This document shows, piece by piece, positions 42,845-57,161 of a stretch of DNA of 64,000 nt. The stretch covers positions 62,001-126,000 of the forward strand of contig NZ_JACJPL010000026.1 in assembly GCF_014696065.1 (NCBI RefSeq). The letters are read 5' to 3'. This DNA comes from Leptolyngbya sp. FACHB-261. GTDB taxonomy: Bacteria > Cyanobacteriota > Cyanobacteriia > FACHB-261. Within the stretch, counting starts at the first letter, position 1, and every line of letters begins with the position of its first letter. Under the pieces are notes generated by a model. It did not search any database. It was not told where the DNA came from and saw only the letters and a program-made list of their open reading frames with translations. The position numbers were made by a program, and so were the translations under genes.

Positions 42845-45688
42845 ATGATGGTGATCAAATCGCTGCTCAGCCAGTTTTCTCAAAGCTCTAGGAGAGTTCC
42901 CCTTCGAGCCGTCCTGGTTGTACCCTTTGTGCTCCAGATTTTTGCAGCCGTGGGCTTAACCGGTTGGCTCTCGTTCCGGAACGGTCAGCAGGCCGTGAAT
43001 GAAGTGACTGCCCAACTGCGAGACGAGGTGACCGCTCGTATCCAGCAACAACTGGACCGCTACCTGGAGGTCCCTCTATTGGTGAACCAGATCAACGCCG
43101 ATGCGATTCGCCTTGGGCAGCTCAACATCCAGGATGAGCGTAGTCTGGAACGCCATTTTTGGCAGCAGATGCAGTTGTTTAGCTCTGTCGGCTACATCGG
43201 TTTAGGCACCAACCAAGGCGAATACGTTGGTGTACAGCGGCTCGATAGCGGTGAGCTGTGGATTGATGTAGCTGGCCAGGCGACAGGGGGCAGTATCCAG
43301 ACCTATAGTAGTGGCCCTCAGGGTAGACGCGCTCGCCTATTAAGAACTAAGCCTAACTATGACCCTCGTGCTCGAAGCTGGTACCGAGCGGGTTTAACCG
43401 GTGCAGGGAAACCCGCCTGGACTGAGGTTTACCCTTACTTCGGCACAAAAACACTGGCTATCAGTGCCAATCAGGTTTTCTACAACGAGCAGGGCAACGT
43501 ACTGGGTGTAGTCAGTGCTGACCTGATCCTGTCTCAAATCAGTGACTTCCTGCACGGTCTTAGAATCGGGCGCACGGGCCAGACCTTTATTGTGGAGCGC
43601 TCTGGCTTTCTCGTCGGTACCTCAACCCTAGAGCGCCCCTTTCGCGTTACCAGAACAGCTGAGTCCCAGGAGCGACTCAAGGCGATAGAAAGCCGCGATC
43701 CGCTCACCCGCCTGACTGCCCGCTATCTAGAAACCCACTTTGGCAGTTTGACTCAAATTGGCAGTAGGCAGCAGCTAGATTTCACGATTAATGGTCAGCG
43801 CCAATTTCTACAGGTGTTACCACTGCACAACTCTCAGGGGCTGGACTGGTTGATTGTGGTGGTGGTACCTGAAGCTGACTTTATGGAGCGTATTGATGCC
43901 AACACCCGTTCCACGGTTTTGCTGTGCTTAGGTGCCTTGGTCTTCGCAACGCTGCTGGGCATTCTTACTTCGCGGTGGATAGTCGAGCCAATTCTGCGGT
44001 TGAGCGCTGCGGCTAAAGCGCTTTCTCAAGGGCAGTGGGAGCAAAACGTGCCCGTTGAACGGGAAGATGAACTGGGAATTCTGGCAACGGCTTTTAATCA
44101 GATGGCAGGGCAACTGCGCGCGTCCTTTGCAACTTTAGCCCAGCGCAATGAGGAGCTAGAGCTACGCGTAGAAGCTCGTACAGCTGCGATTCGCCAAGCT
44201 AACGAGCAGTTGTTGGTAGAGATTGCTGAGCGTCGGCAAGCGGAGGAAGCGCTCCGGCAATCGGAGGGAGATCTGCAAAAAGCCAAAGAGGCAGCGGAGG
44301 CAGCTAACCGGGCCAAGAGTGAATTTTTGGCCAACATGAGCCATGAGTTGAGAACCCCCCTCAATGGCATCTTAGGTTATGCGCAGATTCTTAAGCGAGG
44401 CAAGAGCCTGACGGAGCAGCAGCAGAATGGCGTGGAGATTATTCAGCAGAGCGGCGAGCACTTACTCACGCTAATTAATGACATTCTCGATCTCTCTAAG
44501 ATTGAAGCTCGAAAGATGGAGCTTTATCTGAGCGAGTTTCATTTTCCTGAGTTTCTCAAAAGCATTGCCGATCTATTCAGAGTTAGAGCTGATCAGAAAG
44601 GAATTTCATTTATTTATGAACCGCTTTCTTGGCTACCCTCGGGTGTATACGGCGACGAAAAAAGATTGCGTCAGATTTTGATCAATTTGTTGGGCAATGC
44701 CGTCAAGTTCACGGAACAGGGTGGCGTTGTTTTCAAAGTAGGCTATCACAATCAAAAGATTCGCTTTCAAGTAGAAGATACAGGAATTGGTATTCCCTCG
44801 GAGAAACTAGAAGAGATTTTTCTGCCGTTCAAGCAGGTAGGGGATCATAACCGCTGGGTTGAGGGCACCGGTTTAGGACTACCGATTAGCAGCAGACTTG
44901 CCAAAATGATGGGCGGGGAGCTGCAGGTCAAAAGCACTGTTGGTAAAGGCAGCACATTCTGGTTTGAATTGGAATTACCAGAAGTGTCTCAATGGCCTGA
45001 GATGAATTTGAACGACAAGCAGGCAATTGTTGGTTTCAAAGGTGAGAAACGCAAAATTCTAGCAGCCGATGATAAACCAGAAAATCGCTCAGTTTTAGTT
45101 AATTTGCTCTCCCCTCTGGGCTTTGAAGTGATAGAGGCTATCAATGGCCAGGATTGCCTGAGTAAGGCGGTGGAATTTCAGCCAGATGTCATTTTGATGG
45201 ATCTGGTAATGCCAGTTATGGATGGTTTTGAGGCCACACGCCAGTTGCGGAAATTAACCGGACTAAAAGATGTGATCATTATTGCCACATCTGCAAGCGC
45301 CTTTGATTATGACCAGCAGGGCAGTTTAGAAGCGGGCTGCAATGATTTTGTTTCCAAGCCCGTTCGGGTTGAGGAGTTATTGAGTGGCCTGCAACGGCAC
45401 TTGGGTCTGGAATGGGTGTATCAAGAGGGCCGCTCGGTCTCTGTGGCCCCTATTGGGGAGAACGTTCCAGTCTTAACTTTGCTGCGGCCATCGGCTCAAG
45501 AGATGACTGTATTGCTAAATCTAGCGGTAATTGGAGATATCAGAGGCTTGTTAGAACAGGCGGACAAGCTAGAACAACACAATCAGCAGTTCGCACCATT
45601 TGCAACAGAGTTACGTCAGCTAGCCAAAGGTTTTCAAGTCAAAAAAATTCAAGATTTTATCAAGAAGCAAATGGCAGGCAATCCATGA
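42845..45688 (+). CDS. Hybrid sensor histidine kinase (Cache-HAMP-HisKA-HATPase-REC)
   Basis: 947 residues. TM1 ([20 protein letters not shown], about 20-45), an extracytoplasmic Cache-type sensor region (to about 340), TM2 ([20 protein letters not shown]), HAMP, a coiled coil, HisKA with His500 in [12 protein letters not shown], HATPase ([28 protein letters not shown]), then a receiver with Asp786 ([19 protein letters not shown]). A ~130-residue C-terminal extension with no recognised domain follows the receiver. The Cache domain probably binds a small ligand. The stop overlaps the next gene's start (ATGA), so the two are expected to work as a relay. ATG 42848 is a close alternative start. 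Confidence 0.95.
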
Positions 45689-46848
45689 GTGTTGGCAACA
45701 GGCAACAAAGTATTGTTCTGATTGTTGATGATAACCCAACTAATTTGGGGGTTCTTTTTGATTCGCTCTATGACTCTGGTTTCAAGGTGTTGGTGGCTCA
45801 GGATGGGATGAGCGCTATCGAGCAATTGCAATATATTAAACCCGATTTGATCTTGCTGGACGTGATGATGCCCGGCATTGATGGTTTTGAAACCTGCCGT
45901 CGCTTAAAAGCAGATGAGGCAACCAGAGATATTCCTGTGATTTTTATGACAGCATTGGTTGAAACTGTTGACAAGGTCCGAGGGTTGCGTATTGGCGCGG
46001 TTGATTATGTAACAAAACCCATTGAACATGAAGAGGTTTTAGCTCGCATTACAACCCATTTGACCCTTCAAAATCTAAGTCATCAGCTGCAAGAAAATAA
46101 CGAGCATTTACAGCAAGAGATTAATGAGCGCAAGCGAGCAGAAGAGGCGTTACGTGTCTTTTTTCATGCGGTCTCTCATGATCTACGCAATCCCGTTGCA
46201 GGCATGCTAATCGTGTTACGTAATCTGCTCGCAAAGCAGACTGAGGAGCAGCAGAGTGGGGAGCAGAGTAGCCCTGCAACAGCTGCCGTTCCAGTTTCAA
46301 CTTTGGAACGAATGATTCATAGTAGTGAGCGCCAACTTGAACTCATAAATTCGCTGCTCGAAACTCATATTAACGAGACTCAGGGCATGGTTCTTCAGCC
46401 TGAGACTATCCAGTTACAGCCATTAGCGCAGGCTGTGATCTTGGATCTGGAACCTCTATTAGTACAGAATCAGGTGGTTCTGACCAATCTAATTCCTTTA
46501 GATCTGCCAAGGTTTAGTGCGGACCCTGCCCAGCTCTGGCGAGTCCTAGAAAACTTGATCACGAATGCCCTGAAGCACAATTCTCCAGGAATAATGGTGC
46601 GCCTCAACGCTGAGGTTCAGGATAAGTTCATTCGCTGTACAGTTGAGGACAACGGTGTAGGTCTGAACTTAGAGGAGGGCCGTAACCTGTTCGATCTTTA
46701 TGAGCGAGGGACTCAAAGTCAGCACTCATCTGGTCTCGGTTTAGGTCTGTATCTCTGCCGCCAAATCATCGAAGGGCACGGTGGTCAGATTGGAGTAGTT
46801 AGTGGAGTTGGAACTGGAGCGACCTTCTGGTTTACCTTGCCTTGCTAG
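45685..46848 (+). CDS. Receiver-histidine kinase
   Basis: 387 residues. Receiver with D-D at 13-14 (IVDDNPTN), Asp59 ([21 protein letters not shown]) and Lys (VTKPIEH), then a coiled coil, HisKA with His165 in [12 protein letters not shown], and HATPase ([25 protein letters not shown]). The ATG at 45685 overlaps the TGA of the hybrid kinase (ATGA). The frame opens far upstream (45412) inside that gene but has no domain content there. Such receiver-kinases often act as a second step in a phosphorelay. Confidence 0.95.
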
Positions 46849-47252: not shown

Positions 47253-47930
47253 ATGTATATGAGCCAGGCAGGATCAGACACAACTCAGCAGACGTTCCTG
47301 GTTGTGGACGACCATGAGGCAATTTTGGAGGGAACGGTTCCTGCCCTTAAAAGCAAATATCCTCAAGCTGAAGTTCTTACGGCTCAAGATGCGCAGAGTG
47401 CTCTGGGCCAGGTTGCTCGTCGGCAACCAACCTTGGTTGTGGTGGATTTGAGCTTGCCCGAAAAACCACAGGCGGTAGCTAATCCGGAGGTCGGTATTCA
47501 ACTGCTCAAAACCTTGATGCAGGGCCACCCTGCTCCTAACTTAATGGTGTTAAGCACAAATATCAAGCCACTGGTACGCCTCAAACCATTGATTAACGCC
47601 TATGAAGGTGGTTTCGCCGCGATGGATAAATCTTTACCCATTCGCGAGATGCTAAGGCTGATCGACTTTGCCCTCAGAGGCTCAATTTATCTGCCTCCTG
47701 AAGTGCGTGCCCGACCGGAGTTTGACCGTAAGTGGCTAGAAGTCCTGACACTCAAGTTCCAAGAAGGATTGACTGACAAAGCGATTGCAGAACGGATGGA
47801 AGTTAGCGATCGGACTGTGCGCAACTATTGGATTAGGTTACAAGATGCTTTGGGCGTTTATGACGAACCGGGCAAAGACTTGCGCATTCAAATTGAAATA
47901 GAGGCTAGAAAGGTAGGATTACTGAGTTGA
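47253..47930 (+). CDS. NarL/LuxR-type response regulator
   Basis: 225 residues. Receiver with D-D in VVDDHEAI and Asp65 (LVVVDLSLPEKP); a C-terminal LuxR-type HTH (VLTLKFQEGLTDKAIAERMEVSDRTVRNYWIRLQDALGV). The linker and the late Lys (MDKSLP) fit the NarL class, which binds DNA when phosphorylated. Two start codons (47253 and 47259) are in frame. The stop overlaps the next gene's ATG (TGATG), so regulator and CHASE2 kinase form a pair. Confidence 0.93.
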   Translation: MYMSQAGSDTTQQTFLVVDDHEAILEGTVPALKSKYPQAEVLTAQDAQSALGQVARRQPTLVVVDLSLPEKPQAVANPEVGIQLLKTLMQGHPAPNLMVLSTNIKPLVRLKPLINAYEGGFAAMDKSLPIREMLRLIDFALRGSIYLPPEVRARPEFDRKWLEVLTLKFQEGLTDKAIAERMEVSDRTVRNYWIRLQDALGVYDEPGKDLRIQIEIEARKVGLLS

Positions 47931-49882
47931 TGCGTGGTTTCCGGCAGAGATTAAGTGAATCTGGAGCCTGTAGAAAGATCAAGCAACAAGTCAAAGTATG
48001 GCGAGCAGGAGCCTTGCCGGGTTTGGCGGTAGCTGGGTTAGTGGTTGTTGCCCGTCTAACAGGCTCGCTTCAAACCTTAGAGTGGATGGCCCTCGATAGA
48101 CTGCTGCAGTTGCGGCCAATAGAGGCTAGGGATCCACGAGTTGTCATTGTTGGAATTGATGAGCAAGATATCAATGCTGCTGGGAAGTTTCCTATTCCTA
48201 ACCGGGATTTAGCCCAAGCTTTACGAATCATAGAAAGTTATCAACCTAGAGCTATTGGGCTTGACATTTTTAAAGATCTGGTCGCAGAGCCAGATCGAGC
48301 CGAGTTAACAGCCGTTTTCAAAAACGCGCCCAATCTAGTGGTTATCGAAACTGTTTTGAACAGAGATACCAATGTGAAACCTCCACCGGAGGTTCCTCCG
48401 GAGCGGGTGGGTTTTGCAGATAGCTTATTAGATCCGGACAATAAATTACGTCGTAGCCTACTGGCCGGAAAAATACGAGGCTCAGAGACAATCGAATACT
48501 CGCTGCCTTTGCGTTTAGCAGCCCTCTATTTGCGCTCAGAGGGTATTCAGTTTCAACCGAATACCCAAGTGAGTCAACCCCTTCGTTTCGGCACTACTGA
48601 GCTACCTCGTTTTTTGGCTAATTCTGGCGGATATGTTGATGCTAGGGCGGGCGGGAATCAAATTCTTTTGAATTTCCGTGCTCACCCAGAGCCGTTTCCA
48701 ACCGTTTCCTTGCAAGATATTCTGGGGAGCAAGGTTTCTGCTGAACTGATGCGGGACCGCATCGTGCTTGTGGGCATGACTGCGTCGAGTGTCAAAGATA
48801 ACTTTGCGACTTCTGCCCTGCCGAATCCACCTGCATTGGGAGCGCGAATCGGGGGACCGAGTGCCGATCAGTATCAGTTACTTTACGGTGTGGTCATGCA
48901 TGCCCACGCCACGAGCCAAATTATTAGCGCGGTTCTGGACGGACGACCCATGATCAGAGTTTGGACAGATGGCTGGGAGTACCTTTGGATTGTGCTCTGG
49001 GGCTTGTCTGGGATCACCCTAGGTCTCGTGTTGCAATCCCCCTGGAAAACTATTCTGAGCATTGGTCTTGGCAGTGCTGGTCTAATTGGCATTTGCTATG
49101 TGCTCCTGATCTGGGGTTGGTGGGTTCCAGTGGTGCCAACTTTACTAGCTTTTTGTGCCGCAGGTCTCACTAGTTCATTTTTTGATCGCGACTTGAGGAT
49201 CCTATTAGAGCAACGAAGCTTAACCCTAAAACGCACCTATGATGCCGTGCACAATGGTCCTCTACAAACCTTAGCGGCGATGCTACGCAGTATTGACGAG
49301 GCAGAAACTTCACCAGAGCAGTTGCGTTCACAATTACAGTGTCTCAATCGTGAATTGCGCTCGGTTTATGAGTCAATGAACCAAGAAATTTCAAGTGGTG
49401 AAACTCCGTATTCTGAGATTCCATTGCAAGAGCTGCTCTATCAAGTCTATGAAGAAACTTTGCTGCGGGACTTTAAAGGTTTCACAACGATTAGAACTTT
49501 TATCCCACCCGATTTTTCGTCCTTAGAAGCTCTCTCACTAACAGCCGATCAAAAACGCAGTCTCTGCACCTTCCTACAGGAGGCTCTATGCAACGTTGGC
49601 AAACATGCTGTCGGGGCAACTCGCTTGGATGTGGTCTGTAGTCAGGATGAAAATTGGTGCAGCCTGCGCGTGATTGACAATGGTACCAGCAGCCTTTTAA
49701 CTCAGAGCCCTGATGGTGGGCGGGGAACGGAGCAGGCAAAAGAACTGGCACGGCAACTACGAGGGAAATTTCAGCGACGGCCCCACTCTCCTCAAGGAAC
49801 GGTTTGTGAGTTGAGTTGGCCCCTCACAAGAGGCTGGCGCTTCCGCTGGTTGGCTGCACTCACTAAACACCTATCAGCCTAA
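47930..49882 (+). CDS. CHASE2 sensor histidine kinase
   Basis: 650 residues. An N-terminal TM is followed by an extracytoplasmic CHASE2 domain (about 35-320; VVIVGIDEQDIN..., FPIPNRDLAQALRII..., GLDIFKDL, RIVLVGMTASSVKDNFATS), then three TM segments (IVLWGLSGITLGLVL, SIGLGSAGLIGICYVLLIWGW, VPTLLAFCAAGLTSSFF), a HisKA_3-like region with His441 (TYDAVHNGPLQTLAA) and a HATPase domain (QEALCNVGKHAVGA, VIDNG, GGRGTEQAKELARQLRG). The pairing of HisKA_3-type kinases with NarL regulators matches the gene directly upstream (TGATG overlap). CHASE2 ligands are unknown. It is followed by DUF928, CHAT and exoprotein genes. Confidence 0.94.
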   Translation: MRGFRQRLSESGACRKIKQQVKVWRAGALPGLAVAGLVVVARLTGSLQTLEWMALDRLLQLRPIEARDPRVVIVGIDEQDINAAGKFPIPNRDLAQALRIIESYQPRAIGLDIFKDLVAEPDRAELTAVFKNAPNLVVIETVLNRDTNVKPPPEVPPERVGFADSLLDPDNKLRRSLLAGKIRGSETIEYSLPLRLAALYLRSEGIQFQPNTQVSQPLRFGTTELPRFLANSGGYVDARAGGNQILLNFRAHPEPFPTVSLQDILGSKVSAELMRDRIVLVGMTASSVKDNFATSALPNPPALGARIGGPSADQYQLLYGVVMHAHATSQIISAVLDGRPMIRVWTDGWEYLWIVLWGLSGITLGLVLQSPWKTILSIGLGSAGLIGICYVLLIWGWWVPVVPTLLAFCAAGLTSSFFDRDLRILLEQRSLTLKRTYDAVHNGPLQTLAAMLRSIDEAETSPEQLRSQLQCLNRELRSVYESMNQEISSGETPYSEIPLQELLYQVYEETLLRDFKGFTTIRTFIPPDFSSLEALSLTADQKRSLCTFLQEALCNVGKHAVGATRLDVVCSQDENWCSLRVIDNGTSSLLTQSPDGGRGTEQAKELARQLRGKFQRRPHSPQGTVCELSWPLTRGWRFRWLAALTKHLSA

Positions 49883-50058
49883 ATATCCTGAACAGTCATA
49901 AAACTGTTTGAACAATTTAATTGCAAAAATCGGAAGCCAGGGAGTGCCAAACTGGAATGAAAACTTGCCATGACCTCGATATGATCAGGATGAAACAAGG
50001 CTGATGATTGCCCCTTCAGGCGGGGATAAGCTTCTAACCATTTCTTCTCCAGGCGACG

Positions 50059-50838
50059 ATGATGCGACCTCCAAGATTTCTGAAAACTCAATCGGTTACT
50101 AAGACATTGAAGACATTAGCAACCGGTAAGGCACTAGTGGCTGGCTTGGTGCTGACGACGTCTCTGTTGCTACCTACACTGGCTATTGCTGGTGATGATA
50201 GTGATTATCTGCCTGACACCAGTCGTTCTGGTGGCTCTAGAGGCTGTAGTACCAGAACTTCCCCCTCCGCTGAGAGCAGCGCTGCTCTCATCCTGCTCAC
50301 TCCTCAGCAAACCTTGGGACAAACAATTTCTACGCGCCCAACTTTTGCTTGGTTTGTGCGCGATGCTGGCTCCTGGCCAATGGAATTCAGGCTCTATGAG
50401 CATGACTTGAGCAATGACCAATTCAAGTTGGTTAAGGAAATCAAAGATGAGAGCTTCAAAAGCGCTCCCGGTATTACAGTGCTGTCTCTCTCTCAGTCGG
50501 TACCCGAGCTGACTCCCGGCAAGCGTTACCGTTGGCAGGTGGAATTAGTCTGTAACGCCAGTCGGCCTTCTGGTAATCCTTTTGCCGAGGCTGAGCTTGA
50601 GGTTATCTCGCCCCGTTCTGAACTTAGAACCAGCCTAGCGGGGGCTCGTGACCGCTTGAACCGTGCAACCCTCTACGACCAAGCCAACCTGTGGTATGAC
50701 GCTTTGGGATTGGCCCTCACCGCGAACTCAGATACTCAGCTCAGGGCGTTCAGAGCCTCATTGCTGGATAAGGTGGCACTTGGCGCAGCGGAAAGATCAG
50801 AACTACAAGGCAGCACCGTTCATCAGGTGCAACGCTGA
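50059..50838 (+). CDS. DUF928 domain secreted protein
   Basis: 259 residues. A signal peptide (TLATGKALVAGLVLTTSLLLPTLAIA) precedes a low-complexity linker and a DUF928 domain: TLGQTISTRPTFAWFVRDAGSWPMEFRLYEHDL, a beta-sandwich (VPELTPGKRYRWQVELVCN, the typical W/Y-rich strand), and an alpha-helical end (ANLWYDALGLALTA). The function is not established; the family occurs near CHAT and haemagglutinin genes in cyanobacteria. The next gene is the CHAT protein on the opposite strand, with only 53 nt between the stops. Confidence 0.9.
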   Translation: MMRPPRFLKTQSVTKTLKTLATGKALVAGLVLTTSLLLPTLAIAGDDSDYLPDTSRSGGSRGCSTRTSPSAESSAALILLTPQQTLGQTISTRPTFAWFVRDAGSWPMEFRLYEHDLSNDQFKLVKEIKDESFKSAPGITVLSLSQSVPELTPGKRYRWQVELVCNASRPSGNPFAEAELEVISPRSELRTSLAGARDRLNRATLYDQANLWYDALGLALTANSDTQLRAFRASLLDKVALGAAERSELQGSTVHQVQR

Positions 50839-50866
50839 CCTTAGGCAGGAACGAGGGGCCATAGTT

Positions 50867-50902
50867 ACAGCCAACACTTACAGCCAACCAGCTACAGCCA
50901 GC
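50867..50902 (+). repeat. Short tandem repeat, ACAGCCA x 3, across the CHAT stop
   Basis: ACAGCCA occurs at 50867, 50880 and 50894 (periods 13 and 14). On the minus strand the unit is TGGCTGTA, the codons Trp-Leu-stop at the end of the CHAT gene, repeated twice beyond the stop. It therefore looks like a duplicated gene end. Confidence 0.75.
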
Positions 50903-53669
50903 TGCCCACCAGAATAAAAGGGGCCCAATAACCCGGATGACGGTAGCGCCCTCGGGCATGGGTGGCCAACCAATCCCGTTGGGCCACCTGTAGAGCTTTG
51001 GCTCTGCTTAGTCCCTGCTGTAGTCCTTGGTAGAACTTGACAATTAATTGCTCCGTGGCTCGGTCGTCAACTTGCCACAGTGAGGCAACTGCACTGCGTG
51101 CGCCTGCTTGTAAAGAAATCCCTGCAATGCCAAGAGCATCCCGGTCACTCCCAGCAGCGGTTTCGCAAGCAGTTAGGGCCAACAACTCTAAGGGGCGATC
51201 AGGACGACGGGTGTTACTAATAATCTGGTAAAGCTCATTCATCGTCAGTTTTTGATTATTGCGTTCTGGTGGCGAACTCAGCTTGCCGGTTACCAGAAAC
51301 GTCTCACGAGCATCGATGCCAAATTTGCCGTGGGTTGCCAGATGAATCACCGGGTAAGCGCTACGCTGGAGCTCTTGTTGAAGGCGATCAGGCGTGAACT
51401 GATCATCCAAGAGCCCCTTGCTGCCAGGGAGCGCTGTTGCAATGCCATCAATCTCTGATTTGACCTGATTTAGAGGTTCGAAGAAGGTTTGGCCATCAAT
51501 AACTGAGGGTTTTGTTAGGCCAAAGGCTAAAACTCGAAGATCCTGAGGCTGCAACTGTGTCGGCTCAACCAAAGTCAAGCTAGGTGTATTGGCGATGGCA
51601 TACTGCTCAACCAAAAACTGCTGACCGTCGTGAAGTGTAGACATTGGAATGCTACGCAGAATGCCATCCTGGATAAACACTAGGGTGTCGATCTGAGCTT
51701 TCGCTAAATCAGTGCTAAAAGGCCGGATCAGCCAGTCATACAATTGCCTCGCTGGAGCACGATAGGCATTTTCTAGATCAGACCGTTTTTCTAGCTTCAA
51801 ACGAAAGTCATTGACTGTTGCTGTCAGTTCTTGATTGCTCACTTGCAGCCAATGGATGCGTGAGTTCCCCTTCGCTTGTGAATCTTCTTGTGAACTGGGC
51901 AAAGTCAAGATCAAGGCAACGCGATCGCGAAACAAAATAGAATTAAAGACAGCAGTTTTAGCAGCAACTAAGCTGACTGGTTTGGCAATAGTTTCTAAAG
52001 AGCATTCATCACCAAAATAGTTTTCCAGTTCTGCCAGCCTTAGGCCGTCAATCGTTTCAAGCGCTGATTCCAAGTCTTTTTGCAGCTCTGCGAGAGCAGA
52101 TGGTTGTACAGCTTGCTCCAGTCTTAGTTGCGCTAGTTCACGGTAGACCGGGTCGACGGTATCGCGAAAATCAAACTGAAAATCGCGGCTGGCCACAGCC
52201 AAGGTACCGCGAAGTTTGCGTAAGGTCTGTACGGATTGCTCATAGGCTCGCAGCGACTCAGGCTTCCGCCCTTGCGCTTTAAAGATACGCCCTGCCTGCC
52301 ATTGCCATAGGTACAGCGTTTCGTCGGTAACAGCGGCGAGTTCGGCTTGCTGAGTGAGAGATAAAGCCTGTTCTAGCTTGCCCTGGCATTCAGCCACGTG
52401 ACCCAATCGCCCCAGCGCGTACGATTCAGCTTGGCGGTCTCCAATCTGCTGAGCAATCGTGGTTGCTCGATTGAGCAAGGCGACGGCGCTAGCTGGCATG
52501 GGCTGGCTCAGACATTGAGCCGTAGGGTCTAACTCAGAGTCAGCAGGAGGCAACGCAACCAAGTGAGTTAAATTTGCCAATTTCATAGCCATGTAGGCTT
52601 TGTCGCGAGACTCTGGCAGACGCTCCAGGGCCTTAAGCGCTTGCTCAAGGACAGCATTAGCCTGATTAGTATCAACCTGAGTTGTATTGACCTGACGGGT
52701 ACTTGCCTGAGTTACTGCATCAGCATGAGCGGCGCGGTGGTAGGGCAAAACTAAGTTGAGCAGGGCCCGAATTTCGCCAGGTAAATCAGCCTGAGATCGG
52801 GCGAGGTTGAGGCTTGCTTCAAAATATTCAAGCGCTTTGTTGTTGGCATCGGCGGCGTTGCGTTTGAATTTCTGGGCGACTTCAGAATCATCGGATTGAG
52901 TTGCAAACTGAGTCCGACGAGCATCACGACGAGCAATGCTGGCGTAGAGGTTACCCAAACTATTGAGCGCGGCAATTCTGTAGTTCAGTCGCTCGATTTG
53001 GGTTGCCAATTTCAAGCTAGCTTCTAGTTCCTGCATAGCCTGTTCATAGGCTCCCTGAAAGCGATGGGCATTGCCTAGACTGCCAAGTGCCGCAATCTCA
53101 CCTTCAACATCCTGTTGGTTACGAGCCAAGGCCAACGCGCTATCCCGACTGCATTCTCCCCCTTCAGTTGTCCCGCATAAAAGTGCTACGGCTCGTCGGT
53201 GTTGACCGAGGCTGCTATAGACCTGCGCTTGTTCAGTCAGGAGTCGGCCTAAAGGTTGTTGGTTGCCCTGTCGACGGTAAATTGTGATGGCTCGTTCTAG
53301 GTAGGCGATAGTTTGATCGGCCTGTCCCATTTGCTGATGAGCTTTGGCCAAATATTTCAAAAGGTTAGTCTCGTTTTCTAAAACGGTGGAGTGAGCAGGC
53401 CGTTGCTCTGCCTGGGCTTTTAAAGCTGCTTGCCAAATATCAATCGCTCCTTGAAAGTCCCCTGCCTGATAGCGCGACAAGCCCTGTTGTAAAGGTTGGC
53501 TTGCACTGCCAGTAGGACTAGTGGGCTGCGCAGTTACTCGACCATCGAGACTAGCTGAATGGAACGAGGATATTGGCAGTGGGCCAAGCCAGACACACAG
53601 ACCAACGCTGAACAGAAACAAAACTTCTAAAAATCGCCGGATTCTGACTCGGCGTCGTTGACTTGGCAC
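50892..53669 (-). CDS. TPR-CHAT domain protein, exported
   Basis: 925 residues from GTG 53669 (CGGAG upstream); the frame extends to 53762. The N-terminus RRFLEVLFLFSVGLCVWLGPLPISS is a signal peptide or anchor, so most of the protein is extracytoplasmic. TPR repeats run from about residue 55 (QGLSRYQAGDFQGAIDIWQAALKAQ) to about 510. A CHAT domain forms the last ~350 residues with the caspase-like dyad His780 (HLATHGKFG) and Cys835 (LTACETAAG), followed by GARSAVASLWQVDDRATEQLIVKFYQGL. CHAT proteins (e.g. HetF in cyanobacteria) are caspase-family proteases, sometimes coupled to signals. The unusual exported location makes it distinct from the CRISPR-associated TPR-CHAT proteins. It is divergent from the haemagglutinin-type exoprotein, with a shared 125-nt region. 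Confidence 0.93.
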   Translation of the reverse strand: MPSQRRRVRIRRFLEVLFLFSVGLCVWLGPLPISSFHSASLDGRVTAQPTSPTGSASQPLQQGLSRYQAGDFQGAIDIWQAALKAQAEQRPAHSTVLENETNLLKYLAKAHQQMGQADQTIAYLERAITIYRRQGNQQPLGRLLTEQAQVYSSLGQHRRAVALLCGTTEGGECSRDSALALARNQQDVEGEIAALGSLGNAHRFQGAYEQAMQELEASLKLATQIERLNYRIAALNSLGNLYASIARRDARRTQFATQSDDSEVAQKFKRNAADANNKALEYFEASLNLARSQADLPGEIRALLNLVLPYHRAAHADAVTQASTRQVNTTQVDTNQANAVLEQALKALERLPESRDKAYMAMKLANLTHLVALPPADSELDPTAQCLSQPMPASAVALLNRATTIAQQIGDRQAESYALGRLGHVAECQGKLEQALSLTQQAELAAVTDETLYLWQWQAGRIFKAQGRKPESLRAYEQSVQTLRKLRGTLAVASRDFQFDFRDTVDPVYRELAQLRLEQAVQPSALAELQKDLESALETIDGLRLAELENYFGDECSLETIAKPVSLVAAKTAVFNSILFRDRVALILTLPSSQEDSQAKGNSRIHWLQVSNQELTATVNDFRLKLEKRSDLENAYRAPARQLYDWLIRPFSTDLAKAQIDTLVFIQDGILRSIPMSTLHDGQQFLVEQYAIANTPSLTLVEPTQLQPQDLRVLAFGLTKPSVIDGQTFFEPLNQVKSEIDGIATALPGSKGLLDDQFTPDRLQQELQRSAYPVIHLATHGKFGIDARETFLVTGKLSSPPERNNQKLTMNELYQIISNTRRPDRPLELLALTACETAAGSDRDALGIAGISLQAGARSAVASLWQVDDRATEQLIVKFYQGLQQGLSRAKALQVAQRDWLATHARGRYRHPGYWAPFILVGSWL
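51921..51928. other. HIP1 octamer GCGATCGC
   Basis: The octamer GCGATCGC lies inside the CHAT gene. HIP1 is greatly over-represented in many cyanobacteria. I noticed only this one copy in 64 kb, so this lineage seems not to be HIP1-rich here. Confidence 0.7.
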
Positions 53670-53794
53670 GGGGAAACTCCGATGGGCTATTTTATACGTC
53701 GGGGCTTGGCTACATCCTAATCCCTGATCAGTGGTGCGCCATAGGTATAGAGCAATTAACAAGCTTCAGAGAGCTTACAGAGATTAAATTAACG

Positions 53795-56248
53795 ATGCTT
53801 AAAACTTGGCTGCGACAGGGGGGGAGATGGGGGCTCGTCAGTTCCCTAGTGCTGGTTTGCAGTTTGGGAGAACGGACTGAGGCACAAATCGTTCCGGATC
53901 GCACATTGGGATCCGAACATTCAGTGGTGCGTTCCTCGCCTGATCTTCCAGTGGATGCCATTGAGGGAGGGGCCATTCGAGGAACCAACCTATTTCACAG
54001 TTTTCAACGATTTAATGTGTCAGAAGGTCGGGCCGTTTACTTTATTAGCCCAGAACCAGCTATCCAAAATATTCTGGCACGCGTCACAGGCCGTAGCCGT
54101 TCCGAAATTCTTGGCACCTTAGGAACATTAGGCGGCTCTAACCCCAATCTATTTTTGATTAATCCGAATGGTGTAGTTTTTGGGCCGCAGGCTAGCCTGG
54201 ATATCGCTGGTTCTCTGGTCGCAACTAGCGCCAATGCTGTGAAGTTGGGATCAGGCAGCTTCAGCGCCTCTGCTCCTGCAACTAGTCAATTACTGACAAT
54301 TAATCCTTCCGCTCTCATCTTTAATGCACCGGGTAAACCTGCAAGCATTGTCAATCACTCTAGAGCCGCTACTACAGCTTTGGGAGGAGCCTTAAACGGA
54401 CCATTAGATCGCCCAATTCGAGGACTTCAAGTACTAGATGGTCGCAGCCTGTTGCTAGTTGGTGGTGACCTGAAACTAGAGCAGAGTTTGTTGACTGCTC
54501 CTGGTGGACGCATCGAACTAGGTAGCGTTGGCGGGCCTGGAACTGTTGAATTGTTAGGCAGCAGGGCCAGTGTGTTGGCCACCCAAGTTCCCGATAGTCT
54601 TACGCGGGCCAATGTATCCATCAGTGCTTCAGTTCTGGATGTCACTGGTGCTGGTGGTAGTGTTGCCATTAATAGCCACAATTTAGATATTTTCAATGGC
54701 AGTGGGATCTGTGCTGGCCTAGGCTCAAACAATGTTTGCCGTTCAACAACCTCTAATTCTGGTTCATCACTCGATGAGGCAGGCAACATTGGACTGAATG
54801 CCACTGGCAATATCAGGATTCGACAATTCAGCCGAATTGAGAATGATGTTAACCCGAATGCAACGGGCAATAACAGCAATATTTTCGACGCCATTGAGAA
54901 CGATAAACTGTTTGGTTCTGTTGTGATTAATGGCAGAACAGTGTCAATTACCGATGGGGCTCAAGTCAGTACCAGTACCTCTGGTCGCGGCAACGCTGGG
55001 CTAGTGTTCATTGCGGGCAGTGACAAAGTTCGGCTAGACCAGGCAACGCTTTTCAGCACTGTCGATGAAGGTGCAGTCGGGGATGCAGGTGGCATCTTAA
55101 TCACTGGAGGTTCAATCTCTCTCGATCACGGAACTGAACTTCAGGCTCAAACCAGTGGCCGAGGTCTTGCTGGGCTGGTGGCTCTCCGATCTCAGGGACC
55201 TGTTTCCCTCGCCAATAGGAGCATTATTGGCAGTACCGTGGAAACAACAGCCCAAGGCAGGAGCGACAGTGGTGGCATTATTATCGCTGCTGAATCGTTG
55301 ACCCTAACTAACAATTCGCAATTGCAGACTCAGACGGACGGGCAGGGTAAGGCCGGCCCCATTGTCGCACTGACAACCGGTCCCGTTTCGCTCTCCGATA
55401 GCGGCATGTTCAGCACCGTTGAAAGTGAAGGGCGAGGCAAGGGCGGCAACATTGTGATCACCGCAGGAGCTTTGAATTTAACAGATGGCTCACTCCTTAG
55501 AGCTGATACGACCGGGCAGGGTAATGCAGGCAACATCCTTGTGCAATCCCAAGGGCCAGTGCTGGCCGATAACAGCAGCTTCTCGACCTTTGCTCTGAGC
55601 TTTAAGGGTGGCGATATTAATATCGATGCTAGTGATATCCGATTACTGGAGGGCAGTGATATTGTCACTAGTGTTCTGACTGGTGATCAAAACGGGGGGC
55701 GAATTACGCTAACCGCAGACACCATTGTTGCCCTGGGGGATAGTGATATTTTGGCATTTGCCCAAGGTGGTAGAGGGGGGGATATCACCTTGAATACTCC
55801 TGCATTTTTTAGCTCCCCTTTCTACCGCCCAAGTCCACCTCTGCTAGATCTCGAAGCATTGCTTAACCTGGATGGTAACGACCAAGTGGATATCAACGCC
55901 AGCGGCAGTCTTAGCACTGGGATTATTACACTGCCCGATATTAGCTTTTTGCAAAACAGCTTTACTGAGTTGCCAGCCAACCTACTTGATACTGATAGGT
56001 TGCTTGCTAATAGCTGTATTGTCCGCCGCCAACAACAAGAGGGCAGCTTTATCGTGACTGGGTCAGGCGGTTTACCTGTACTGCCAGATGATTTCTCAGA
56101 ATCATCATTTGAAACCTATAACTTACCCTCGCAGCATGACCAGCCTGCTCATTCTCGCCCCTGGCGATCTGGAGACCCAGTAGTCGAGCCGCAAGGGGCT
56201 TATCGACTGGCCAATGGTGTTACTGTGTTGAGTCGAGATTGTCCCTAG
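53795..56248 (+). CDS. Filamentous haemagglutinin-type two-partner-secretion exoprotein (TpsA)
   Basis: 817 residues from ATG 53795; the frame opens upstream but the signal peptide (RWGLVSSLVLVCSLGERTEAQ) starts here. The TPS domain is clear: IRGTNLFHSFQRFNVSEGRAVYF, then SNPNLFLINPNGVVFGPQASLDIAGSLVATSA (the NPNGxxFG motif). A right-handed beta-helix follows with repeats such as GGNIVITAGALNLTDGSLLRADTTGQGNAGNI, and the C-terminus ANSCIVRRQQQEGSFIVTGSGGLPVLPDD is the usual end of cyanobacterial members. These proteins are exported through a TpsB (ShlB/FhaC) pore, which is not in the window. It diverges from the CHAT gene. A tandem duplication begins at its stop. Confidence 0.94.
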   Translation: MLKTWLRQGGRWGLVSSLVLVCSLGERTEAQIVPDRTLGSEHSVVRSSPDLPVDAIEGGAIRGTNLFHSFQRFNVSEGRAVYFISPEPAIQNILARVTGRSRSEILGTLGTLGGSNPNLFLINPNGVVFGPQASLDIAGSLVATSANAVKLGSGSFSASAPATSQLLTINPSALIFNAPGKPASIVNHSRAATTALGGALNGPLDRPIRGLQVLDGRSLLLVGGDLKLEQSLLTAPGGRIELGSVGGPGTVELLGSRASVLATQVPDSLTRANVSISASVLDVTGAGGSVAINSHNLDIFNGSGICAGLGSNNVCRSTTSNSGSSLDEAGNIGLNATGNIRIRQFSRIENDVNPNATGNNSNIFDAIENDKLFGSVVINGRTVSITDGAQVSTSTSGRGNAGLVFIAGSDKVRLDQATLFSTVDEGAVGDAGGILITGGSISLDHGTELQAQTSGRGLAGLVALRSQGPVSLANRSIIGSTVETTAQGRSDSGGIIIAAESLTLTNNSQLQTQTDGQGKAGPIVALTTGPVSLSDSGMFSTVESEGRGKGGNIVITAGALNLTDGSLLRADTTGQGNAGNILVQSQGPVLADNSSFSTFALSFKGGDINIDASDIRLLEGSDIVTSVLTGDQNGGRITLTADTIVALGDSDILAFAQGGRGGDITLNTPAFFSSPFYRPSPPLLDLEALLNLDGNDQVDINASGSLSTGIITLPDISFLQNSFTELPANLLDTDRLLANSCIVRRQQQEGSFIVTGSGGLPVLPDDFSESSFETYNLPSQHDQPAHSRPWRSGDPVVEPQGAYRLANGVTVLSRDCP

Positions 56249-56678: not shown

Positions 56679-56738
56679 CACACATATCTGAGTCAATGCT
56701 CAAATTTTGCTTAACAAAACTTGACAACCGGGGGCAAA

Positions 56739-57161
56739 ATGAGCACATTGGGAGGCATGGAGCTTCAACGTGCCATTTCAATCCTGTTGCCGGACGAACG
56801 TGAACTGAGCGAGCGCTTGCTCGTACTGCTGTCCTGCGAAGACGCTAGCCAGGATGATAAAGGTGAGCAATCAGCTCCGATAGGTTGTCTAGACCCTCTA
56901 ACGGTTCAACCGCTACGGGCCTTGCAACGATGTCGGATCCGAGTCGTAGACCAGGAGCAGGCCTTACCGGGTGTTCGCTGGCAGGGAAAGCTCTATAGTT
57001 TTCTCAAGCATTTCAACGACACGGCAAGAGCCCGATCTGCCGCCCAGCGCCTCATTGCCCGAGGCGAACAGATTCTATTGACCTCTAGTCCCAAAGGCTT
57101 GACACTCTGGGCACAGGAAGAAGATGGAGAACTAGAGTCCGAGCGAGGAGGCCTCATCTAG
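56739..57161 (+). CDS. Hypothetical protein (140 aa)
   Basis: 140 residues from ATG 56739 (GGGGG 6 nt upstream); the frame runs back to TTG 56721. The N-terminal helix (LQRAISILLPDERELSERLLVLLSCED) and a middle beta/alpha part (RCRIRVVDQEQALPGVRWQGKLYSFLKHFNDTARARSAAQRLIARGEQILLTSSPKGLTLWAQEEDGELE) suggest a small soluble protein, but I do not recognise a family. It converges on the RND operon and has a tandem repeat at its stop. Confidence 0.65.
   Translation: MSTLGGMELQRAISILLPDERELSERLLVLLSCEDASQDDKGEQSAPIGCLDPLTVQPLRALQRCRIRVVDQEQALPGVRWQGKLYSFLKHFNDTARARSAAQRLIARGEQILLTSSPKGLTLWAQEEDGELESERGGLI

Follow-up and report, generated by a model that had tools for sequence, protein, structure and literature searches.

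The genes of the locus

The window, i.e., the whole stretch of DNA that was analysed, was 64,000 nucleotides in length (G000:C26:62001-126000) and was taken from the 6.95 Mb genome of Leptolyngbya sp. FACHB-261. The gene set under study was located at 47253-56248 of the window and contained five genes and one divergent intergenic region (Table 1). Immediately upstream of the five genes lay a Cache-type hybrid histidine kinase and, after it and overlapping with it, a receiver-kinase ORF (42845-46848).

Table 1. Features of the gene set, with positions counted from the first nucleotide of the window
Feature	Position	Strand	Support
NarL/LuxR-type response regulator	47253..47930	+	Pfam Response_reg 5.7e-9, weak GerE 2e-4
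CHASE2 sensor histidine kinase	47930..49882	+	Pfam CHASE2 2e-64, HATPase_c 4e-4
DUF928 protein, predicted to be exported	50059..50838	+	Pfam DUF928 2e-34
TPR-CHAT putative cysteine peptidase, predicted to be exported	50892..53669	-	Pfam CHAT 1e-64 and TPR; open frame to 53762
Divergent intergenic region between CHAT and tpsA	53670..53791		k-mer comparison, no common element
TpsA exoprotein	53792..56248	+	Pfam TPS (PF05860) 6e-44; TIGR01901 1.8e-22

The response regulator contained the receiver residues DD, D, and K, visible in its sequence, and a C-terminal HTH. Its placement in the NarL class was based on the weak GerE match and on its best NCBIfam matches, which were to NarL/EvgA-type regulators and were all below the cut-off. 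The kinase contained a periplasmic CHASE2 domain, transmembrane segments, the acceptor motif HNGPLQ, and a C-terminal HATPase_c domain; its best NCBIfam matches were NarQ/LiaS-type kinases, again all below the cut-off, and the HATPase_c and GerE scores were both under the Pfam cut-offs. The acceptor histidine was His441, counted from the ATG at 47930, and it was conserved in the paralogues together with the N- and G-box motifs. The two genes met the criteria of a NarL-type two-component pair, i.e., an adjacent kinase with a histidine acceptor and an ATPase domain, and a receiver-HTH regulator.

In the AlphaFold2 model of the DUF928 protein (pLDDT 81, pTM 0.73), the N-terminus, which includes a signal-like segment, had low confidence, and the rest consisted of a beta-sandwich of the Ig/Fn3 type and a C-terminal part made of helices. 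The best Foldseek match was the sensor domain of the anti-sigma factor RsgI4 (E 4e-4); adhesin repeats and further Ig-like folds ranked next, and a sequence search of the PDB gave nothing significant. A hydrophobic N-terminus was found in 94 of 99 DUF928 reading frames vs. 117 of 440 control ORFs, and the export of the protein to the periplasm is inferred.

The long reading frames of the CHAT and TpsA genes overlapped at 53663-53762, where the CHAT frame extended upstream to a TTG. The true starts are likely to be the GTG at 53669 for CHAT and the ATG at 53792 for TpsA, which leaves a divergent gap of about 120 bp. The CHAT protein met the membership of the CHAT peptidases (clan CD), in which a CHAT domain carries a His/Cys dyad, and its proteolytic activity is inferred from the sequence. 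Its export was based only on N-terminal hydropathy and on fusions, so that its periplasmic location is likewise an inference. The TpsA protein contained an N-terminal TPS secretion domain (the only domain found by Pfam), a repeat passenger, and a C-terminal tail, and it met the membership of the TpsA family by PF05860 and TIGR01901; secretion through a TpsB pore is inferred.

A preliminary description, made before any database search, had made several claims about the locus, and these were confirmed. Its five family assignments were each borne out by Pfam. The one-base overlap between the regulator and the kinase is correct when the kinase is read from the ATG at 47930, which begins at the last base of the regulator stop codon; with the TTG at 47927 the overlap becomes four bases. 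The CHAT dyad His780/Cys835 was shown by alignment to be intact, within the motifs HLATHG and LTACET, and this numbering is valid from the GTG at 53669, whereas counting from the TTG further upstream gives His811/Cys866. The absence of a TpsB pore was also confirmed: no ShlB/TpsB was found in the window, the three ShlB/TpsB genes of the genome were all located elsewhere, and the criterion of a cognate TpsB linked in the same locus was not met.

Grouping of the families

In the genome of Leptolyngbya sp. FACHB-261, all eight DUF928 genes adjoined a CHASE2 gene. Seven of the eight TPR-CHAT genes either adjoined a TpsA gene, were fused to one, or had a TpsB neighbour, and the eighth runs off the contig end. 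A lack of co-occurrence above background had been named beforehand as a refuting result, and the counts did not give it. The comparison of 80 DUF928 loci of other cyanobacteria, all taken from the better-scoring matches, used 40 loci shifted by 150 kb on the same contigs as controls. CHASE2 was found at 48 of the DUF928 loci vs. none of the displaced controls (Fisher 3e-12), CHAT at 40 vs. 2, TPS at 27 vs. 0, and ShlB at 18 vs. 1.

A second, independent test used 2000 circular shifts of the main contigs of 12 near-closed cyanobacterial genomes, at a distance of 10 kb; for CHAT it took the 141 best matches, alongside the matches to DUF928, CHASE2, and TPS. A CHASE2 gene was present within 10 kb of 45 of 61 DUF928 genes (expected 1.6, maximum 9 in the shifts), a CHAT gene near 33 of 61 (expected 2.8), and a TPS gene near 24 of 61 (expected 1.7), and 56 of 100 TPS genes were found with a CHAT gene (expected 4.3, maximum 17). 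The observed counts were never reached by any shift. The DUF928 and CHASE2 genes were on the same strand with a gap of at most 350 bp, in either order, in 45 of 61 cases; 14 DUF928 genes were partnered with CHASE2 only, and 11 of 61 had no partner within 10 kb. Since the circular-shift null takes no account of accessory islands, adjacency and fusion carry weight here. Single-ORF fusions of TPS and CHAT numbered 19 and occurred in seven of the 12 near-closed genomes, and the fusion of locus L057 was verified by Pfam. Giant TPS-CHAT ORFs of 3380-3411 aa, several of them in tandem, were observed in genome G129 (C6:1164563-1197911 and C6:2349491-2359510). One ORF of 1440 aa, at L110:3-4325, combined a TPS domain and a ShlB/TpsB domain. 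Co-inheritance was checked with the distances of DUF928 and CHASE2, which correlated with r = 0.55 (maximum 0.48 in 5000 within-genome partner swaps); the partner trees matched pair by pair. The displaced controls and the circular shifts thus exclude chance, and the grouping of the five genes is real.

A kinase scan of 84,980 named genomes gave 28 loci of the window kinase type, many of them on short contigs. Among these loci the regulator was present in 26, DUF928 in 19, CHAT in 13, and TPS in 12. The full order RR-HK-DUF928><CHAT-TPS> was found again in Nostoc linckia (L190), Microcoleus FACHB-1515 (L197), and a Xenococcaceae bin (L211), and in the latter two a TpsB comes after the five genes. 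The window CHAT had its 13 closest relatives exclusively in regulator-kinase (RR-HK) loci, although only 15 of the 87 CHAT proteins in the pool came from such loci. In the paralogous locus L055 of the same genome, tpsB occupied the place of tpsA, and its product is possibly the trans partner of the window TpsA. PpiC-type isomerases were encoded near TpsA or TpsB genes of this genome (L055:13850-18933, L064:2070-10987, and L069:12454-13206), and calpain-family (Peptidase_C2) and PPC-domain proteins were also found near such genes at L055 and L064.

Outside the cyanobacteria, Desulfobacula (L257) and a Bacteroidales bin (L255) contained TPS-TpsB-CHAT-CHASE2cyclase-DUF928 on one strand with small gaps, a Nitrospirae bin (L259) contained TpsB-TPS-CHAT-CHASE2cyclase-DUF928 on one strand, and a Deltaproteobacteria bin (L235) contained CHASE2cyclase-DUF928-CHAT. 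Pfam was run on all five proteins of L257 and on selected proteins of the other three loci. The set is therefore found repeatedly among cyanobacteria and also in three or more other bacterial groups, with the reservation that the non-cyanobacterial loci are metagenome bins whose taxon labels may be wrong.

The TpsA tail and the CHAT protein

Most stand-alone cyanobacterial TpsA proteins contained a conserved C-terminal motif, F-x-[VI]-T-G-[R/S/A/N]-G-G-[LVI]-P. In the window TpsA the tail contained FIVTGSGGLP flanked by two cysteines (Cys785 and Cys860, numbered from the TTG at 53663) and ended in LSRDCP. Both flanking cysteines were present in all 52 motif tails, one just before the motif and one after it, near the C-terminus, and the passengers were poor in cysteine, with 22 in total over the 52 motif-bearing proteins. 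The criterion of an anchored TpsA of the HMW1/HxuA type, a C-terminal tail with a cysteine pair, was met; the disulfide itself is inferred. The TPS-CHAT fusions in the collected loci were devoid of the tail motif and carried CHAT at the C-terminus instead, and the TpsA tails of the three non-cyanobacterial operons also lacked the motif.

The CHAT proteins co-varied much more closely with the TpsA tail than with the TPS domain. The correlation of distances between CHAT and the tail was 0.62 over all cyanobacterial pairs and 0.79 without the regulator-kinase loci (overall range 0.57-0.79), compared with 0.24 and 0.50, respectively, for the TPS domain and 0.31 and 0.38 for the 120 residues before the tail. 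A tail subtype ending in LSRxC was found in eight of 14 TpsA proteins of regulator-kinase loci vs. four of 60 others (p=7e-5); these four were lone TpsA proteins of the window's own genome and are possibly clients in trans. The His/Cys dyad was retained in nearly all exported CHAT proteins and in the fusions checked by alignment. A fixed arginine cleavage site, TGR|GG, was considered and rejected as a general rule. Most TpsA proteins neighbouring a CHAT gene have arginine at this position, whereas the window TpsA has serine and its type has serine, asparagine, or alanine, so that one fixed cleavage residue is unsupported.

Outputs of the CHASE2 proteins

Among 58 CHASE2 proteins, nearly all from DUF928 loci, the output domain was CHAT in 17, cyclase in 14, HATPase in 12, GGDEF in four, TIR in two, and AAA_35 in two, with single cases of SpoIIE and protein kinase. 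The constant parts were CHASE2, DUF928, the exported TPR-CHAT, and TPS; the output was interchangeable, and the window represents the version with a histidine kinase and a NarL-type regulator. No promoter motif common to the regulatory regions of the window, L055, L190, and L197 was found by k-mer comparison. A hint from regular expressions that the cytosolic CHAT of the CHASE2 fusions is inactive was rejected, as the alignment placed the His/Cys pair in other motifs in 17 of 17 proteins.

The CHAT-CHASE2 form was often accompanied by DUF1822 and a sigma-like protein. The family of the latter, located upstream of DUF1822 and CHAT-CHASE2 (L054:6433-7071, L057:5952-6734, and relatives), had an ECF-sigma-like predicted fold. 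It had no Pfam match, its L054 member had no NCBIfam match, and a profile searched against PDB sequences gave nothing significant. Its top fold matches were nearly all sigma factors, none of them significant, and a sigma identity resting on such weak matches is only possible. A TIR-CHASE2 protein, the TIR of which matched a Thoeris ThsB model, was observed beside DUF928 and CHAT at L051:14771-16486, where TIR signalling is possibly linked to the envelope sensor.

Discussion

Parts of the set have been described previously. Known TpsA proteins are anchored in the TpsB pore by a disulfide-loop tail, and in CdrA, which is a TpsA, the periplasmic tail is cut by LapG (PMC5422565). One of the nearest known systems is LapD-LapG-CdrA of Pseudomonas aeruginosa (PMC5422565), where a tail-held TpsA adhesin, an exported cysteine protease, and a signal-controlled release are combined; cleavage in the present case is inferred. 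However, a caspase-like CHAT here takes the place of the transglutaminase-like LapG, and CHASE2 and DUF928, with many types of output, take that of the sensor LapD. The locus is not a member of the Lap/Cdr system, as neither a LapG nor a LapD family was found by Pfam among the five genes. In the two-partner secretion systems FHA/SphB1 and HMW/HMW1C (PMC5422565, PMC3983070), a TpsA with a TPS domain is likewise accompanied by a third, modifying protein, but SphB1 is a subtilisin autotransporter encoded elsewhere, and the FHA and HMW systems contain neither a CHAT peptidase nor a linked CHASE2 sensor.

Kaur et al. (2021, PMC8195603) reported caspase-CHASE2 proteins with ECF sigma and DUF1822 and with variable C-terminal domains. 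The sister loci L054 and L057, and others, resemble these EACC2-caspase systems in their CHAT-CHASE2 fusion, DUF1822, and sigma-like protein (the sigma call is weak), whereas the window locus has the kinase and regulator instead and its five genes did not meet the criteria. The text of that paper contained no two-partner secretion, and DUF928 and exported TPR-CHAT were not found in its relevant sections. Craspase/Csx29, which combines TPR with a CHAT cysteine peptidase, is cytoplasmic and CRISPR-linked; in contrast, the window protein has an N-terminus of the export type and is encoded together with TPS genes. A Nostoc CHASE2-WD40-DUF928 cluster, with CHASE2 beside DUF928, was reported as a single lineage-specific case (PMC5587647), in a text from which CHAT is absent. 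A WD40 protein of 1225 aa directly upstream of DUF928, TpsB, and a CHASE2-cyclase at L050:7302-10979 resembles this cluster. In the 5.4 million open-access papers searched, which leave out most subscription papers and preprints, no paper was found with CHASE2, CHAT, and DUF928 together or with 'CHAT domain' and 'two-partner secretion', and DUF928 occurred in a single paper.

We propose that the five genes form one recurring envelope system, a Lap/Cdr-like switch overseen by CHASE2-DUF928. In the absence of data on cleavage, localisation, or transcription, the case for this reading is about as strong as the case against it. Further points that count against it are the serine in the tail motif of the window TpsA, the four lone TpsA proteins with its tail subtype, the missing motif in the three non-cyanobacterial operons, the lack of a common regulator site in the promoters, the 11 DUF928 genes without partners, and the narrow basis for the export of TPR-CHAT. 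In this view, TpsA would pass through a TpsB pore, supplied in trans at this locus, and would be retained there by its C-terminal Cys-loop tail. The exported TPR-CHAT would be a dedicated third partner that acts on this tail and so matures or releases the exoprotein. The DUF928 beta-sandwich, if exported, and the periplasmic CHASE2 domain, whose contact with each other is inferred, may sense the condition of either the envelope or TpsA. The signal would then be relayed by CHASE2 to the output of the locus. In the window this output would be the histidine kinase and the NarL-type regulator, with target genes that are likewise inferred; other loci would use a cyclase, a GGDEF or TIR domain, or a cytosolic CHAT accompanied by ECF-sigma-like and DUF1822 proteins. 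A bolder reading takes the set as an undescribed multi-phylum envelope system, in which the CHAT third partner would control a Cys-hooked tail and a DUF928-CHASE2 module with at least seven interchangeable outputs would report on the exoprotein; we lean slightly against it at present.

The preliminary description had also ventured on function, and its interpretation was supported with two corrections. Its statement that these families recur together in cyanobacteria was borne out by the neighbourhood counts and fusions, and its statement that no described pathway uses them as one unit held for the whole set, parts of which were described earlier (PMC5587647, PMC8195603). Its suggestion that the kinase and regulator control the group needed correction, as the pair is one of many interchangeable CHASE2 outputs and not the core of the system. 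Its suggestion that the protease processes the exoprotein has only indirect support, from the co-variation of CHAT with the TpsA tail, and remains unproven.

Three other explanations were considered. It is possible that DUF928-CHASE2 and TPS-CHAT are two units that meet since both live in accessory regions, and that no single pathway exists. Each pair was also found without the other (the 14 DUF928 genes with CHASE2 only, and TPS-CHAT pairs alone in the window's own genome), and accessory islands lie outside the circular-shift null. Against this stand the one-strand, five-part operons in other phyla, the exact five-gene synteny in three further cyanobacteria, and the origin of the closest relatives of the window CHAT in regulator-kinase loci. 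Less probably, CHAT is a cargo that TpsA, serving as a delivery stalk, brings to the surface, where it would act like a polymorphic toxin on other cells or on the matrix. The fusions do have CHAT at the C-terminus, the position of toxin domains, and in polymorphic toxins a caspase-like domain can serve either as the toxin or in processing (PMC3482391). However, the stand-alone CHAT has its own hydrophobic N-terminus and is encoded apart from TpsA, it co-varies with the tail, and no immunity gene and no convincing PADLOC defence family were seen among the window genes. The polymorphic toxin/CDI criteria (a C-terminal toxin domain with an immunity gene) were not met at the window, and the downstream ORF (56721-57161) had no Pfam match. 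Finally, CHAT might assist the secretion of TpsA as a chaperone or adaptor, its TPR part binding periplasmic TpsA and its peptidase activity being secondary. This fits the large TPR region and the adjacency or fusion to TpsA, but is very unlikely given that almost every exported copy, and the fusions checked by alignment, have retained the dyad. A defence-system reading was rejected, as the PADLOC matches of the window genes were weak or generic.

If the envelope-system reading is true, it would provide a functional context for DUF928, for the exported CHAT proteins, and for the CHASE2 domain, the ligand of which is unknown, and many cyanobacterial TpsA proteins would gain a predicted third partner. 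One sensor module would be coupled to many signalling outputs, and genes annotated as 'unknown' and 'caspase-like' would become a testable system for the control of surface proteins.
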